Below, in pieces: positions 56,924-64,000 of a DNA stretch of 64,000 bases; the stretch's first letter is position 1, and each line of letters starts with the position of its first letter. The translations under genes and the position numbers were made by a program. Origin of the DNA: Tatumella citrea (GTDB lineage: Bacteria; Pseudomonadota; Gammaproteobacteria; Enterobacterales; Enterobacteriaceae); contig NZ_CP015579.1 in assembly GCF_002163585.1 (NCBI RefSeq), positions 3,596,001 through 3,660,000 of the forward strand, given 5' to 3'. The notes under the pieces were generated by a model. It saw only the letters and a list, made by a program, of their open reading frames with translations. It did not search any database and was not told the origin of the DNA.

Positions 56924-57414
56924 GCGTGCTTCCCGTCGGTAGTGAGTGCATTCACCAGACTCTGACCATACGGGCTTCCCGCAGCAATCTCAGCCTGTCG
57001 GGCATCGCCATCGTAGCTCATCGTTACGACTAAATCCGGCTCAGGCAGAAAGCCCTGTCCCCGCTGTGGCCACTCCACCAGGCAAATAGCATCACCGCCA
57101 AAATAGTCGCGGATTCCCATAAACTCGAGTTCTTCCGGGTCCGCCAGACGATAAAGATCAAAATGATAGATTGACCGTTCAGCAATCACATAGGGTTCTA
57201 CCAGAGTATAAGTCGGGCTTTTCACATTTCCCTGATGACCAAGTGCCTGAATAAAACCGCGACTGAACGTGGTTTTGCCGGCTCCGAGATCGCCGTGCAA
57301 ATAAATAATGGTTGCCTGACGGCAGAGCTGAGCCAAAGCCGCACCTAAGGCAAGCGTTGCTGATTCTTCGGGTAAAGAGATGACAATGGTATTCATTATT
57401 TGTTTTAGATTCAT
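56920..57414 (-). CDS. tsaE: tRNA t6A synthesis ATPase TsaE
   Basis: Essential P-loop ATPase that works with TsaB and TsaD to make N6-threonylcarbamoyladenosine at position 37 of ANN-decoding tRNAs. It has 164 residues. Walker [30 protein letters not shown] and [18 protein letters not shown] are present. The ATG at 57414 overlaps the nnr stop (ATGA); an internal ATG at 57396 is the alternative. Confidence 0.96.
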
Positions 57415-58907
57415 TCCGGATTAACTAATCGCCTGAGCGGTTCAAACAGATCGCTGGCTAACATACCTCGCATTCCATGCTCGCGGGCCACCCAATCGGC
57501 AGCGCCACCGTGGGCGACTACCCCTGCACAGGCTGCATCATAGAGAGAGAGCTTCTGACCGGCAAGTGCAGTAATAACCCCGCTCAGAACATCCCCCATC
57601 CCACCCGTCGCCATCCCCGGATTGCCTACATCGGCAATGACTGTTTCCCCGGTCGATGAGCTGATAACAGTACCTGCACCTTTCAGCACCACGACTCCGC
57701 CATAGCGTTGGACTAACTGCCGCGCCGCCAGCAAACGATCGTTTTCCACCTTCTGCACCGATGTGCCTAATAATCTTGCAGCTTCTCCCGGATGAGGAGT
57801 AAGAATGCGATTCTGACGTGTATCGGGACTGATTGCCAGAAGGTTAAGGGCATCTGCGTCCCAAAGTGTCTGTTTTTTACTTTTTTTTACCTGGTTAAAG
57901 ACCCATTTTCCCCATGCCTGCTGGCCAAGCCCCGGACCGATCATCACGGTATCGGCCCATTCCAGACTTTCCTCCAGCCATTGTTCAGACATTGCAGCAG
58001 CCATAAGTTCCGGGCGTGCCGTCACTAACGCGTTAACGTTATCTGGATGCGTCAGAACCCGCACCAGCCCGGCACCGCTACGCAGAGCCGCCTCCCCCGC
58101 CAGACGAATTGCGCCACCGGTACCATCATCACCGCCTATCAGTACTAGTTTGCCATGATCACCTTTATGCGCAGTCGCTTTACGGGCAGGTAACCAGCCA
58201 GCCAGATGGCTAACGTCCTTGCGCCATACCGGAGGATCAGCATAGTTCCCTGCCAGCTCAGGGCCTAAAGGATCTAACAGGATCGTTCCACAATAATCGC
58301 GGGCTTTACCGGTAAGTAATCCGGCTTTCAGAGCAATAAATGTCAGTGTGACATCAGCTTTGATTGCCACACCAGGTACCGTGCCACTGTCGGCCATGAC
58401 TCCGGACGGAATATCCAAAGCAATTATCGGGACGGATCGCTCCTCCGCTTTTTCGATCAACTGACGGTAAGGATCTTCCGGTGCACGATTCAGGCCGATC
58501 CCCAGCAAAGCATCAACGATCAGATGTTCTTCACCGATCCAGTCGCTGTCAGCTGGCAAACATTCGCCACCACAGGCCAGCCATTGCTCTCTTGCCTGCA
58601 ATGCTTCCGCCGGTAACCGGGCGGCATCGCAGGCAATCACTGTCACCCGGAAACCTGCCTCTTTAGCCAGCCGGGCCACCACATAACCATCACCGCCGTT
58701 ATTTCCGCTACCACAAAGAATCCGCCAGTGTTCAGCCTGCGGCCATAGACGGCAAATATGCTGAAAAGCCGCGTGCCCCGCCCTCTCCATCAACGTTCTG
58801 GTGGATATCCCGCAAATACTACAGAGTTGTTGTTCAAGTGACGGAAACTGACTGGCTGGCCAGACGGCCCCGGAAAGTGACGACAGACTGAAGTTATTTG
58901 CAGACAT
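57411..58907 (-). CDS. nnr: Bifunctional NAD(P)H-hydrate repair enzyme Nnr (epimerase plus dehydratase)
   Basis: A 498-residue fusion that repairs NADH/NADPH hydrates: an N-terminal YjeF_N epimerase ([17 protein letters not shown] near residue 66; [12 protein letters not shown]) and a C-terminal ADP-dependent dehydratase ([37 protein letters not shown]). ATG at 58907 follows AAGAGGTGGTCC and fits the family; the frame extends upstream to 58955. First gene of the superoperon. In E. coli queG lies divergent beside it; here it faces the datA-like region. Confidence 0.95.
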
Positions 58908-59062
58908 GGACCACCTCTTACCAGCAAAAGGAAAGCAGTCACAATAACATACCAAAGGTCAAAAGGGGGTTGAGCAGAAATTGTCCTGACATCAGTTGAA
59001 TACACTATTTTGGTCTGAGACAGAAAATAATTCCGGAGGGCTGGCTGGTAGTTTTTTTCTTC

Positions 59063-59071
59063 TGTGGATAA
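59063..59071 (-). promoter_or_regulatory. DnaA box (TTATCCACA)
   Basis: Reads TGTGGATAA on the plus strand, so TTATCCACA on the minus strand: a perfect high-affinity DnaA box. Confidence 0.8.
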
Positions 59072-59156
59072 AAATAAAAAACCTCAGACATTCAAAGGCT
59101 ACAGACGAAATATGACCGGGGTCACATCTGTGAGGAAGGAAAAATATAAATAATTA

Positions 59157-59169
59157 AATCAATAGATTA
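59157..59169 (+). promoter_or_regulatory. IHF binding site
   Basis: AATCAATAGATTA matches the IHF consensus WATCAANNNNTTR at every defined base and is preceded by an A/T-rich tract (about 59139-59156), as in strong IHF sites. It lies between the two perfect DnaA boxes. Confidence 0.78.
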
Positions 59170-59227
59170 TATCATCCTGGTCATACCAGGACAGTAGCGC
59201 GTTCAGAGAAAACAAATCATCTGTGAC

Positions 59228-59236
59228 TGTGGATAA
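59228..59236 (-). promoter_or_regulatory. DnaA box (TTATCCACA)
   Basis: Second perfect TTATCCACA on the minus strand, 165 bases from the first and in the same orientation. Confidence 0.8.
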
Positions 59237-59723
59237 CTCTGTTTACAGACTACAGAATAAAACCATGGTTTTTGACCGATTTCAGACGATTTTCCCGAAG
59301 AAAAAACTACTTTAAGTCTGCATTGCGCAGAGTGACATCAGCCGATGCCTTTCGGGGAGGCGCATTATGCAGGTATCCCCCCGTGATAGCAATCACCAAA
59401 TCCTCTGCTGCAGACTGTTCGCTTAGTATCTGTACAATAGCTGGCGAATATTCTGTAGTAAAACCTGCATGGGCAGAGGGAGAAAAAATAACCTGATCAG
59501 CAGGATAGGAATAAGATCTTTCGATCCTTCAGTCACAGACAAGGATCGACTCCGGGATCGTTTGTCAGCAGGATAATAGATCGCGATAAAATCATCCCGC
59601 AGGAAACTATTCAGCCCGCTGTATTTCTTGGTATGCTGCATTTAGCTGTTGTTCTAACTGGTAATTACTTTCCATACGAAACAGTTTCGATAGAAAATTA
59701 AATAAGCAACCTGGAAAATAACA

Positions 59724-60581
59724 ATGAATAGTCGCGAAATCATTTGGTTTGATGGAGAGTGGAGTACAACGGACAAGCCGGTTATTGGATTAACCGATCA
59801 TGCACTATGGATGGCTTCAGGGGTATTTGATGGCGCGCGCTCTGTCAAAGGCCACCTGCCGGATCTCGAACCGCACTGCCAGCGGGCGATCCGTTCCGCG
59901 ATCACTATGGGTATGGCTCCTAAAATCTCTGCAGAAGAGATTGCGAATCTGGTTCGTGAAGGTCTGAAACAACTGCCTCATGATACTGATTACTATATTA
60001 AGGTCCTGTTCTTCTCTCCGGGCGGATTCCTGTTACCTGATCCGGATACCACCACTTTCGCATTGCATATTTTTGAAACTGCTCTGCCGGAAGATAACGG
60101 ATTTAGCGCTACCTTCAGCCCGTTCCGTCGTCCGGATGCGACTATGGCTCCGACCGAAGCAAAAGCGTCCTGCCTGTACCCGAATACACAGCGTATTATC
60201 CGCGAAGCTAACCAGCGTGACTTTAACACCGCTGCAGTGCTGGATGCAGAAGGCAACATTGCTGAGTTTGCCGCTGCTAACCTGTGGATCGTGAAAAATG
60301 GTATCGCCTATACACCGGTGCCAAACGGTACTTTCCTGAACGGGATTACCCGCCAGCGAGTGATTAAGCTGCTGAGTGGTGACGGAATTAAGGTAGAGGA
60401 AGTGACCCTGACTCCGGAAGATGTACTGAATGCCGATGAAATTTTCAGTACCGGTAACCACGGAAAAGTCCTGCACTGCAACCGCATTGAAGACAAAGCC
60501 CTCACCCGTGGTCCTGTCAGTGCCCGCGCCCGTGAGCTGTATCAGGAATTTACTCTGCAATCAGAGAAAGTTGCCGGATAA
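59724..60581 (+). CDS. Class IV PLP aminotransferase (branched-chain type)
   Basis: Fold-type IV aminotransferase of 285 residues. The PLP lysine is Lys147 (TEAKASCLY), the pyridine-N Glu is about Glu181 (NIAEFAAANLWIV), and the phosphate-binding segments FLNGITRQRVI and STGNHGKV are visible. It is shorter than IlvE (about 309) and its substrate-determining N-terminal half (FDGEWSTTDKPVIGL, GVFDGARS) differs from E. coli IlvE, so it could be a branched-chain, D-amino acid or related transaminase. Stands alone with its own terminator; not part of the E. coli order here, so it is an insertion. Confidence 0.85.
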   Translation: MNSREIIWFDGEWSTTDKPVIGLTDHALWMASGVFDGARSVKGHLPDLEPHCQRAIRSAITMGMAPKISAEEIANLVREGLKQLPHDTDYYIKVLFFSPGGFLLPDPDTTTFALHIFETALPEDNGFSATFSPFRRPDATMAPTEAKASCLYPNTQRIIREANQRDFNTAAVLDAEGNIAEFAAANLWIVKNGIAYTPVPNGTFLNGITRQRVIKLLSGDGIKVEEVTLTPEDVLNADEIFSTGNHGKVLHCNRIEDKALTRGPVSARARELYQEFTLQSEKVAG

Positions 60582-60602
60582 CACGCAGGTTTTATCAGTT
60601 AA

Positions 60603-60630
60603 GGCCGGCGTTGATACGCTGGCTTTTTTA
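60603..60630 (+). terminator. Intrinsic terminator of the aminotransferase gene
   Basis: GGCCGGCG and CGCTGGCT pair (two G-U) around a 6-base loop and are followed by TTTTTA. Confidence 0.82.
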
Positions 60631-60672
60631 TGTGCTGAATAGTTACAGGCGTAAGAAATCACGCTTTATCAG

Positions 60673-60760
60673 CTGAAAGACTGAAAGACTGAAAGACTGA
60701 AAGACTGAAAGACTGAAAGACTGAAAGACTGAAAGACTGAAAGACTGAAAGACTGAAAGA
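60673..60760. repeat. Tandem octamer repeat, 11 perfect copies of CTGAAAGA
   Basis: Eighty-eight bases made of 11 uninterrupted identical 8-base units, in the gap between the aminotransferase terminator and a tRNA-Gly gene. No gene spans it: reading frames through it arise from the repeat itself. It is not a CRISPR (no spacers). Confidence 0.97.
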
Positions 60761-60786
60761 AGTAAAAAGAGAAGATACAAAAAAAC

Positions 60787-60862
<76 letters not shown>

Positions 60863-61099
60863 ATTGGAAGGTGTTACTGCTGCATCTCTGTTACTGTGCT
60901 TTCGCTGGTGAACCTGAACTAACCCTTTGATTGAAAGGTGTTTTTTGTTCCCCTTAACAGGATGGACAGTATTATGGACTAACTTTTCAGTGACAGCAAG
61001 CCTCATGCCATCTTTTTTTTTCGGGTGATATTCATTGCCACATCCGCCAGTTTCAAAGCCTGCGGCGATGCGCTCTCCCCCGTCGACGGGTTATCTTTC
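60863..61099. other. Upstream region of the separated tRNA-Gly
   Basis: No gene. It holds the 5' leader of the tRNA, the promoter-like element described at 60971-60999, a small ACCCTTT/AAAGGT hairpin near 60920, and the 3' flank of the LysR gene. Confidence 0.5.
60971..60999 (-). promoter_or_regulatory. Candidate promoter of the separated tRNA-Gly
   Basis: On the minus strand -35 TTGCTG (60994-60999), 17-base spacer, -10 CATAAT (60971-60976). It would give about 100 nt of leader before the tRNA, so it could let the separated copy be transcribed on its own. Confidence 0.5.
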
Positions 61100-62029
61100 T
61101 TATGGCTGGTATTTCCAGTATGCAGGACTGCCAAATTTATCGGCGAAGAAGTCGATAACCGTACGTACGTTCAGCGGCATAAAACGTGCATGCGGATAAA
61201 GCATAGCAATGGCCAGTTCCTGCTGGCTGATGGCAACCTGGTAATCAGGTAGCAAACGCACCAGCTGGCGTTGTTTCAGTAATTCACCAATCAGCCAGTC
61301 CGGCATGGCAATAATACCGCCGCCCTGTAATGCAGCATTCAGCAAAGTTTCTGCATTGTTAGATAACAGCACCCCTTGTGGAGCCTGAATCTCAGTCGTC
61401 TGGCCTGGTTTTGTCAAAAACAACCGCTGTGCCCCCATCACCCCTTTGTAGACCAGGCAACGATGATCATCCAGCTCACCCGGCAGTTGCGGCGTACCGT
61501 GGCGGGCAAGATATTCAGGACTGGCTGCCAGATGATAAACAGAAGTATCGACGACTCTGACGTGCAGACCAGAATCCTGTAAAGGTGCAATACGAAACAA
61601 TAGATCAGCAGTATCGCTTAGCGGATCGATAAAATCGTCAGTCTGAGTCAGTTCAATGCGCAACCCGGGATACTGTTCAGTCAGCTCTGCCAGCCAGGGT
61701 GCAATATGCCGGTAACCAAAAACCACCGGTGCATTGATTCGTACCAACCCTGCCGGCTGGCTCTCACGGTCCAGTAACAGTTGAGTCGTACTACTCAGCT
61801 CATCCAGTACCCGCCGAAAAGTATTGCCATACAGCCGCCCTGCCTCTGTCGGAACAATAGTTCGCGTATTGCGAAACAACAGCTGTAATCCCAGTTCATC
61901 TTCCAGCTGGCTGATAATCCTTGATACCGATGACGGTGACATAGATTCCCGGCGCGCTACGCCGGAAAAATTGCCGGTATCAAGAACCGCAACATACAAC
62001 TGCATCGCCCTGGTGCTAATACTCATCAT
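61100..62029 (-). CDS. LysR-type regulator next to the YdcZ pair
   Basis: LysR-family protein of 309 residues: helix-turn-helix (residues 5-62, GNFSGVARRESMSPSSVSRIISQLEDELG) and effector domain of the CrgA/DmlR-type subgroup (GLVRINAPVVFGYRHIAPWL). Divergent from the two small transporter genes over 108 bases, so it probably controls them. Two ATGs in a row; either could start it. Not found at this place in E. coli. Confidence 0.85.
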   Translation of the reverse strand: MMSISTRAMQLYVAVLDTGNFSGVARRESMSPSSVSRIISQLEDELGLQLLFRNTRTIVPTEAGRLYGNTFRRVLDELSSTTQLLLDRESQPAGLVRINAPVVFGYRHIAPWLAELTEQYPGLRIELTQTDDFIDPLSDTADLLFRIAPLQDSGLHVRVVDTSVYHLAASPEYLARHGTPQLPGELDDHRCLVYKGVMGAQRLFLTKPGQTTEIQAPQGVLLSNNAETLLNAALQGGGIIAMPDWLIGELLKQRQLVRLLPDYQVAISQQELAIAMLYPHARFMPLNVRTVIDFFADKFGSPAYWKYQP

Positions 62030-62137
62030 GATTTATCTGTGCATCTTTTGCATAAGTGTTATGCAATCTTCCCTCTTTTTAGAAAACTGCTCAAATCTTA
62101 TTATTGGTTTTTTCTTTATTTTCGGAAGTTAAAAATC

Positions 62138-62575
62138 ATGAAATTAGCCGCAATCCTGCTGGTAATACTGGCCGGGATGGGACTCTCCGTTGAAGCCGGT
62201 ATCCTTGGACCACTGGGGGAACGTGTAGGGCATTACTGGGCAAGCCTGAGCTTGTTCGGTGTTGAAGCCGCCTTAACCTGGATACTGATGCTGTTTTGGG
62301 GGCCAAGAAATCCTCAACCCTTTCTTACCTCCCCGGGCTGGCAACTGACCGGGGGTATCTGGGGGCCGATGTACGTCATTATTCTGACCGTCGCAACCCC
62401 GGTGATTGGAATCACTCTGTTGATGACAGGAGTCTTGGCCGGACAGGTCAGTAAAAGCCTGCTGATTGACCATTTTGGCTGGTTTGGTGCACCGCGCCGG
62501 CCGGTGAATGGTAAAAGGCTGACAGCTCTGGTGTTTGTTGCTGCAGCCCTGATTTTAATTGCCGGAGGCAAATAA
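62138..62575 (+). CDS. YdcZ-type DMT-superfamily membrane protein (first of pair)
   Basis: A 145-residue protein of the DMT_YdcZ family (formerly DUF606) with about five hydrophobic segments (LAAILLVILAGMGLSVEAG; MYVIILTVATPVIGITLLM; TALVFVAAALILIAGGK). Half-size relatives of the drug/metabolite transporters usually act as dimers. GGAAG precedes the ATG at 62138. Two bases separate it from its paralogue. Substrate unknown. Confidence 0.85.
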   Translation: MKLAAILLVILAGMGLSVEAGILGPLGERVGHYWASLSLFGVEAALTWILMLFWGPRNPQPFLTSPGWQLTGGIWGPMYVIILTVATPVIGITLLMTGVLAGQVSKSLLIDHFGWFGAPRRPVNGKRLTALVFVAAALILIAGGK

Positions 62576-62577
62576 CA

Positions 62578-63054
62578 ATGATTATTCTGATGGTGATACT
62601 CGCCATTATTGGCGGTGCGTTGCTCAGTGTACAGGCAGCTGTTAACGGTAAGCTTGGGGCAACCCAGGGGGCTATCCGCACCACCTTTCTGACCTTTCTT
62701 TGTGGCACTGCAGTCAGTGCGCTGCTGGTCATCTTTCTGGAACCGGCACACAGCATCACTCTGTTTGATGTCCCGAAATGGCAGCTAACCGGATCATTCC
62801 TTGGCCTTGCCTATGTACTGACCATGGTTTTTGCTGTGCAGCGTATCGGCACTGCCGTGGCTACCGTGGCAGTGATTCTTGGACAACTGGCGATGTCGAT
62901 GATGATTGACAGCTTTGGCTGGCTGGGCAACCACGCCATTCCTCTGTCGTGGAATCGCATCCTGGCTGCGGTGTGTCTGGTGATTGCGCTCTGGTTTATC
63001 TATAGCGGGAATAAATCTGCATCTCAGGCCAGCCAGAAAAAACGTGCCGGATAA
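62578..63054 (+). CDS. YdcZ-type DMT-superfamily membrane protein (second of pair)
   Basis: A 158-residue paralogue of the preceding gene with the same plan: GGALLSVQAAVNGKLG at the start (compare GMGLSVEAGILGPLG), LTGSFLGLAYVLTMVFAV in the middle and SWNRILAAVCLVIALWFIYSG at the end. Two bases after its partner, so surely co-transcribed; the pair probably forms a heterodimer. A basic tail (SQKKRAG) ends it. Confidence 0.86.
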   Translation: MIILMVILAIIGGALLSVQAAVNGKLGATQGAIRTTFLTFLCGTAVSALLVIFLEPAHSITLFDVPKWQLTGSFLGLAYVLTMVFAVQRIGTAVATVAVILGQLAMSMMIDSFGWLGNHAIPLSWNRILAAVCLVIALWFIYSGNKSASQASQKKRAG

Positions 63055-63221: not shown

Positions 63222-63297
<76 letters not shown>

Positions 63298-63337
63298 AGG
63301 GTGGTGCTTTTTACATCTGTAACTTTACATCTTAATC

Positions 63338-63413
<76 letters not shown>

Positions 63414-63562: not shown

Positions 63563-64000
63563 TTAAAGCTTAAGGAAATTTTCGCGGTAGTAACGCAGTT
63601 CCGCCACTGATTCACGAATATCGTCCAGCGCCTGGTGGGTACCGGCTTTTTTAAAGCCAGGTAAAATCTCCGGCTTCCAGCGACGAGCCAGCTCTTTCAG
63701 AGTACTGACATCCAGGGCCCGATAATGGAACCAGGCTTCCAGCTCTGGCATATATTTATATAAAAAGCGCCGGTCCTGACCGATACTGTTGCCGCAGATA
63801 GGTGAGGCATTAGCCGGAACCCATTGTTTTAAAAATTCCAGGGTCGCCAACTCAGCAGCACGGTCGTCATATTCGCTACGTTTCACCCTGTCTACCAGAC
63901 CGCTGCCGGTATGAGTTCGGACATTCCAGTCATCCATCAGAGCCAGTTGCGCATCTGACTGATGAACGGCAATCACCGGCCCTTCTGCCAGAATATTCAG
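63563..64000 (-). CDS. orn: Oligoribonuclease Orn, 5' end cut by window edge
   Basis: DEDDh-family 3'-5' exonuclease that clears 2-5-nt RNAs (essential in E. coli, also degrades pGpG). The frame is open to base 64000; about the first 36 residues, with the DxE metal motif, lie outside. Visible part: [44 protein letters not shown], then [14 protein letters not shown] with the catalytic His and Asp. Adjacent to tRNA-Gly genes as in E. coli. Confidence 0.97.

Follow-up and report, generated by a model that had tools for sequence, protein, structure and literature searches.

A datA locus in Tatumella citrea faced by a tRNA-type promoter-like sequence of its own

An intergenic gap of Tatumella citrea contains what is almost certainly the datA of this organism, as judged from sequence, and the same gap holds a conserved promoter-like sequence facing datA. 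The explanation that we favor, with a probability of roughly 0.78 for the whole, is that Tatumella datA has a promoter of its own, which would replace the tRNA read-through known from E. coli. It draws on sequence comparison and on analogy with E. coli. The element belongs to a known kind, datA, and its setting is a variant: tRNA-Gly and queG are gone from the side of datA, and a stand-alone promoter-like sequence of tRNA type is present. A literature search, restricted to titles and abstracts of papers available without subscription, found neither this variant nor datA in Tatumella, nor a datA-facing promoter outside E. coli.

Materials and methods

Positions refer to the window, that is, the whole 64-kb stretch of T. 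citrea DNA that was analyzed. NC_000913.3 was the reference sequence for E. coli datA. Loci were collected with the datA pattern ACAGAGTTATCCACAN{138,168}TTATNCACA and with a variant of it containing ACAGAC. The pattern itself fixes boxes 2 and 3 and, therefore, independent evidence comes from the features that it leaves free. One of the 13 named matches (L063, a Lachnospiraceae contig) had none of the marker genes, was taken as a chance match and was excluded from later counts.

Promoters were scored with a simple home-made sigma70 matrix. A site passed if it scored at least 8.5, had at least five G/C among the eight bases after the -10 and lay 60-300 bp before box 7. The first set was made up of 105 distinct loci with at least about 3.9 kb of sequence, which do not represent all 132 pattern-positive genomes, together with a few named or order-level loci. 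L192 was dropped from its 41 separated loci because of short upstream sequence, and the remaining 40 were grouped into 18 clades, with six genera counted as one clade. A looser pattern for the hold-out gave no genome beyond the first pattern list and, thus, the ACAGAC variant was used instead. The hold-out consisted of 110 loci from the 112 genomes with the variant; G284 and G405 were left out, and L213 and L246, which lie at contig edges, were left out of the promoter test.

Results

On the minus strand nnr starts at 58907 and on the plus strand a class IV aminotransferase gene starts at 59724, and the 816-bp gap that separates the two holds datA and the promoter-like sequence (Table 1). A preliminary description of this DNA had reported two perfect TTATCCACA boxes in the same orientation, 165 bp apart, with a perfect IHF consensus between them that is preceded by an A/T tract. 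All of this was confirmed: the minus strand carries both boxes, whose starts are 165 bp apart, and the tract lies at about 59140-59156. The orientation of the IHF site relative to the boxes is that of E. coli datA, and the window has one other perfect match to the IHF consensus. A box 7 equivalent, absent from the preliminary description, was also found; it has three misfits, compared to two in E. coli, and its position is that of the low-affinity box 7 of E. coli datA. Boxes 7, 2 and 3 all point one way. In an alignment of six Tatumella genomes, all 9 columns were invariant in each of boxes 3 and 2 and 8 of 9 in box 7, while the IHF 13-mer was exact in five genomes and had one mismatch in the sixth. 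The two weaker boxes that had been proposed, at 59129-59137 and 59529-59537, did not hold up: each has two misfits to TTATNCACA, and only 0/9 and 1/9 of their columns, respectively, were invariant. No reverse box of the kind that would represent box 4 directly follows box 3 in the window sequence; across loci, a reverse box with up to two misfits occupies this place in 29 of 67. Box 4 of datA is stimulatory in vitro and not essential in vivo. The box-1-like TATNCACA was not found at Tatumella datA.

Table 1. Coordinates of datA, the promoter-like sequence and the neighboring genes in the T. citrea window
Feature	Position	Strand	Remarks
nnr, NAD(P)HX epimerase/dehydratase	57411-58907	-	First gene downstream of datA on the promoter's strand
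DnaA box 3 equivalent	59063-59071	-	TTATCCACA, perfect; E. coli box 3 is TTATTCACA
IHF-binding site (IBS), predicted	59157-59169	+	13-mer AATCAATAGATTA; perfect match to consensus WATCAANNNNTTR
DnaA box 2 equivalent	59228-59236	-	TTATCCACA within TGTAAACAGAGTTATCCACAG
DnaA box 7 equivalent	59240-59248	-	CTGTAAACA, three bases from box 2; E. coli TTGTAAACA
GC-rich, tRNA-type discriminator	59353-59363	-	GCGCCTCCCCG; part of the promoter-like sequence
Promoter-like sequence	59353-59392	-	TTGCTA (59387-59392), 17-nt spacer, CATAAT (59364-59369); faces datA
Class IV aminotransferase gene	59724-60581	+	Antisense to the tRNA-to-datA direction
tRNA-Gly (GCC), nearest copy	60787-60862	-	
LysR regulator and two YdcZ-family genes	61100-63054		Split the tRNA-Gly array
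Two tRNA-Gly (GCC) genes	63222-63413	-	Array promoter TTGCGC-16-TATAAT-TCGCACCCC
orn (3' part inside the window)	63563-63976	-	Conserved flank of the glyVXY-datA region

The likeness to datA that had been suggested was upheld by alignment with the E. coli sequence. The block TGTAAACAGAGTTATCCACAG is identical in the two over 21 bp, with box 2 and box 7 inside it, and the order in the E. coli direction is TGTAAACAGAGTTATCCACAG, IHF site and then TTTTTATCCACAG (in E. coli TTTTTATTCACAA). The IHF site and box 3 are in register, since the distance from the start of the IHF site to box 3 is 98 bp in the window and 97 bp in E. coli. What E. coli datA requires, according to PMC5742627, is boxes 2, 3 and 7, all pointing the same way, together with a single IHF site. 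A place for box 7 between the IHF site and box 3 was considered and rejected because PMC5835720 puts box 7 beside box 2. The 183-bp minimal length in E. coli fits TTGTAAACA as box 7, 12 bp upstream of box 2. The T. citrea genome offers no better candidate, as the datA pattern matches it once, at the window locus.

TTATCCACA occurs 54 times in the genome, and apart from the datA pair no two copies on one strand lie within 200 bp of each other. The chance expectation of such a pair is 0.06, or about 6 percent of genomes, so the pair by itself is only mildly unusual. The locus stands above chance because the extended box 2, box 3, an IHF site at a constant distance and the neighbors recur across the family. 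The datA pattern was found in 132 of 392 family genomes, once in each, and the ACAGAC variant in 112 further genomes, with no genome in both lists. This gives 244 of the 392; the exact pattern is absent from the other 148, and a reversed-pattern control had no match in the 392. An order-wide draw gave matches in 22 of 394 genomes, three of them outside the family, and 5375 of 5426 E. coli genomes contain the datA region.

Among the features that the pattern leaves free, the IHF site was matched at a fixed place, with one mismatch or none, in 135 of 215 distinct datA loci, compared to 1.6 percent of 4085 control windows. Position -9 of box 2 was T in 210 of the 215, and box 2 and box 3 were 161 bp apart, start to start, in 143. 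Either queG or nnr lay within 3 kb downstream of datA in 211 loci; queG was detected in 199 loci, always in convergent orientation. Taken together, these sequence data make it almost certain that the element is the Tatumella datA.

Two other observations were made on the boxes. A block, GATCNCTTG, precedes box 3 by about 48 bp in 135 of the 215 loci, and by exactly 48 bp in 118 of these. It contains a GATC (Dam) site, and the Tatumella window has GGTCATATT there; to our knowledge, the block has no known role. E. coli oriC (L095, position 482) has a perfect box with the extension of datA box 2, ACAGAGTTATCCACAG, which we take to be R4.

The replication partners of datA were found in the T. citrea genome. 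DnaA retains R281, R285, L290 and R334 and is 97.6 percent identical over residues 130-467, and both IhfA and IhfB scored above the cut-off. The distance from oriC to datA is 666 kb, which is 14.8 percent of the chromosome (10.1 percent in E. coli).

The preliminary description placed the element beside tRNA-Gly in the neighborhood of E. coli datA. The interval orn - tRNA-Gly - queG - nnr is indeed recognizable and a tRNA-Gly gene is present, but queG has been lost and the tRNA lies about 1.5 kb off, behind an antisense gene. Neither change was in the preliminary description. Box 7 and tRNA-Gly are separated by 1472-1940 bp in Tatumella, compared to 73 bp in E. coli, and all six Tatumella genomes have the aminotransferase gene in this interval. 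Judged by gene arrangement only, read-through from tRNA-Gly would be unlikely to reach datA in Tatumella. The insertion of the LysR and YdcZ-family genes in the tRNA-Gly array is shared by the window and T. morbirosei (2/6 Tatumella). No queG turned up in the six Tatumella genomes or in G060, all seven of which have queA; another epoxyqueuosine reductase may replace queG, or the pathway may stop early. The start of nnr lies 148-165 bp past datA on the same strand in all six.

A search for an RNA gene with Rfam over 58900-61100 gave only the tRNA at gathering score. Directly downstream of the tRNA-Gly gene at 60787, eleven perfect copies of an 8-bp repeat, CTGAAAGA, occupy 60673-60760, the place expected for the tRNA terminator. 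In a different genome (L078, G004), the nnr match consists of two overlapping pieces, perhaps from a duplication or a frame break.

The promoter-like sequence, which the preliminary description also lacked, has a -10 that ends 115 bp before box 7. In the six-genome alignment, the -35 was invariant in 6/6 columns, the spacer in 4/17, the -10 in 6/6 and the discriminator in 10/11. Together, the hexamers and the discriminator are invariant in 22 of 23 columns, compared to 9 of 104 in the leader. A plain consensus scan of 58700-60900 gave this one site, with 3.0 expected in shuffles, and it is the conservation that argues for a putative promoter.

Other genera were then compared. In the first set, tRNA-Gly was on the same strand within 200 bp of datA in 64 of the 105 loci and beyond 400 bp in 25, and the stretch of sequence covered held no tRNA-Gly in 16. 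With thresholds chosen after looking at these data, a promoter was found to face datA in 11 of the 18 clades with separated loci (30 of 40 loci). None was seen on the reverse strand, where the control covered a slightly different span (40-280 instead of 60-300 bp). When one member per clade was shuffled, 200 times in all, 1.45 clades passed on average and never more than 5.

The same thresholds were fixed beforehand for the hold-out. Of its 110 loci, 75 had tRNA-Gly within 400 bp, two were at contig edges and 33 were separated. A promoter was found in the forward direction in 22 of the 33 and on the reverse strand in one; by genus, counted by hand, the figures are 10 and 1 of 15. Sixteen of the 22 passing loci have TTGCCA-17-CATAAT with a GC-rich discriminator. 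No passing promoter was detected in 11 of the 33 hold-out loci and 7 of the 18 first-set clades; in six of the 11 (L261, L264, L280, L281, L299 and L300), a sequence of this form is present but weaker. These genera and clades are not independent trials, since the promoter may be one ancestral element. A single draw of 392 genomes supplied most of the loci in both sets, and two genera, g165 and g167, have separated loci in each.

Convergent queG comes after datA in 18 of the 22 hold-out loci that passed and in 23 of the 30 that did so in the first set; with one exception, it is 17-62 bp from datA. The promoter in those loci is, therefore, without an adjoining sense gene. The other four passing hold-out loci, all g141, have nnr directly after datA, as in Tatumella, and queG was not found beside datA.

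Loci with an adjacent tRNA were examined for the origin of the promoter. A promoter of the same score lies 15-160 bp before the tRNA cluster in 127 of 132 such loci, on the forward strand, which was the only one scanned, and 115 of the 127 have TATAAT. Of the 15 loci in which a lone tRNA-Gly gene adjoins datA, 9 have a tRNA promoter of the CATAAT, 17-nt type. A 3' remnant of tRNA-Gly, exact over 14 bases, was found upstream of datA in L180. Remnants with 2-4 mismatches were seen in two genera, one of which failed the promoter test (L280-281) and one of which passed it (L271-274). Overall, 6 of 73 separated loci have a remnant with at most three mismatches, and shuffles predict 0.6. We read the datA-facing promoter as a tRNA promoter that was probably retained after loss of the tRNA gene.

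Discussion

In E. coli, read-through from glyVXY (PglyVXY) is required for timely departure of IHF from datA, and the timing of IHF release is stated as open, both according to PMC10950094. By analogy with E. coli, ATP-DnaA in Tatumella would occupy boxes 7 and 2 and, across the IHF site, box 3; a bend introduced by IHF would bring the DnaA molecules into contact, and their ATP would be hydrolyzed. This hydrolysis of DnaA-ATP at datA would damp re-initiation at oriC. The antisense gene and the distance of 1.5 kb would hinder read-through from the tRNA, and the promoter-like sequence could supply transcription through datA in place of glyVXY. A GC-rich discriminator makes inhibition by ppGpp possible at rrnB P1, as described in PMC7483510, and IHF release in Tatumella might in this manner still follow growth rate and ppGpp. 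What is observed is the promoter-like sequence, how it is conserved and that it recurs in further genera; its activity and purpose are our inference. The step from a conserved promoter to eviction of IHF is borrowed from E. coli, and we consider it only slightly better than an even bet that the promoter drives transcription through datA for IHF release.

Another possible explanation is that the promoter serves nnr and later genes after the loss of queG, with polymerase crossing datA as a side effect. The promoter-like sequence of Tatumella does point also at nnr, selection could be for nnr expression, and the position of nnr close after datA in a genus where queG was not found fits this, as do the four g141 loci. 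The next gene is antisense, however, in most passing loci of both sets, where convergent queG follows datA, and we regard the explanation as rather unlikely. Antisense control of queG was also considered as the purpose and rejected since queG was not found in Tatumella. Expression of nnr fails as a purpose where queG is convergent, and in Tatumella it is antisense control of queG that fails, which leaves datA as the common target. Likewise, making tRNA or controlling queG cannot be the common reason for the promoter because Tatumella datA adjoins neither tRNA-Gly nor queG.

The promoter could instead be left over from a former tRNA-Gly gene beside datA and have no present role. The CATAAT, 17-nt type that it shares with promoters of lone tRNA-Gly genes next to datA would be accounted for in this way, as would the remnant in L180 and the weaker ones in two other genera. 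We find this improbable, given that the leader has drifted in Tatumella but the hexamers and discriminator have been kept.

It is quite improbable that the locus only titrates DnaA, or that its boxes regulate flanking genes, without hydrolysis. Genes can be regulated by DnaA boxes close to promoters. According to PMC5835720, titration of DnaA is another activity of E. coli datA. Against this, fixed spacing, same orientation and a fixed IHF site are needed for DDAH in E. coli, according to PMC4585315 and PMC5742627, and these features persist in Tatumella despite the departure of queG and the tRNA from datA's side. Chance clustering of boxes, which has in its favor only the 0.06 probability that the genome holds two boxes on one strand within 200 bp of each other, is practically negligible in light of the family-wide conservation and the shared neighbors.

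A datA promoter in place of tRNA read-through, as we propose for Tatumella, could be one case of a wider rule. Enterobacterial datA would generally have a dedicated ppGpp-sensitive promoter that sends RNA polymerase through datA, evicts IHF and couples growth rate to the inactivation of DnaA; this would be the tRNA operon in E. coli and a stand-alone promoter, kept after tRNA loss, in Tatumella and other genera. We see the odds for this rule as even. The findings suggest that being transcribed is part of the function of datA. Lineages in which tRNA-Gly is distant and a tRNA-type promoter nevertheless points into datA would provide a natural experiment on the timing of IHF release, and a promoter aimed at datA where E. 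coli uses a tRNA operon makes the question of switch timing testable.

Among known systems, DARS1 and DARS2 are also non-coding clusters of DnaA boxes, and DARS2 also uses IHF. The core boxes of DARS2 are oppositely oriented, as stated in PMC13036160, whereas the three boxes of Tatumella point one way, and this orientation rules out a DARS-like reading. The promoter-like sequence resembles PglyVXY of E. coli in its sigma70-type hexamers and in GCGCCTCCC directly after the -10. It differs in its 17-nt spacer and CATAAT, compared to 16 nt and TATAAT in E. coli, and in having no tRNA gene between itself and datA. With E. coli datA, the Tatumella locus shares boxes 7, 2 and 3 in one direction, a single IHF site between boxes 2 and 3, a nearly equal box spacing (165 compared to 162 bp, 3 bp longer in Tatumella), the chromosomal neighborhood, and position and orientation relative to oriC. 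Unlike E. coli datA, it has a box 3 of perfect consensus, one extra misfit in box 7 and no boxes 1 and 4; queG is lost, tRNA-Gly lies 1.5 kb off behind an antisense gene, and datA has a promoter-like sequence of its own.
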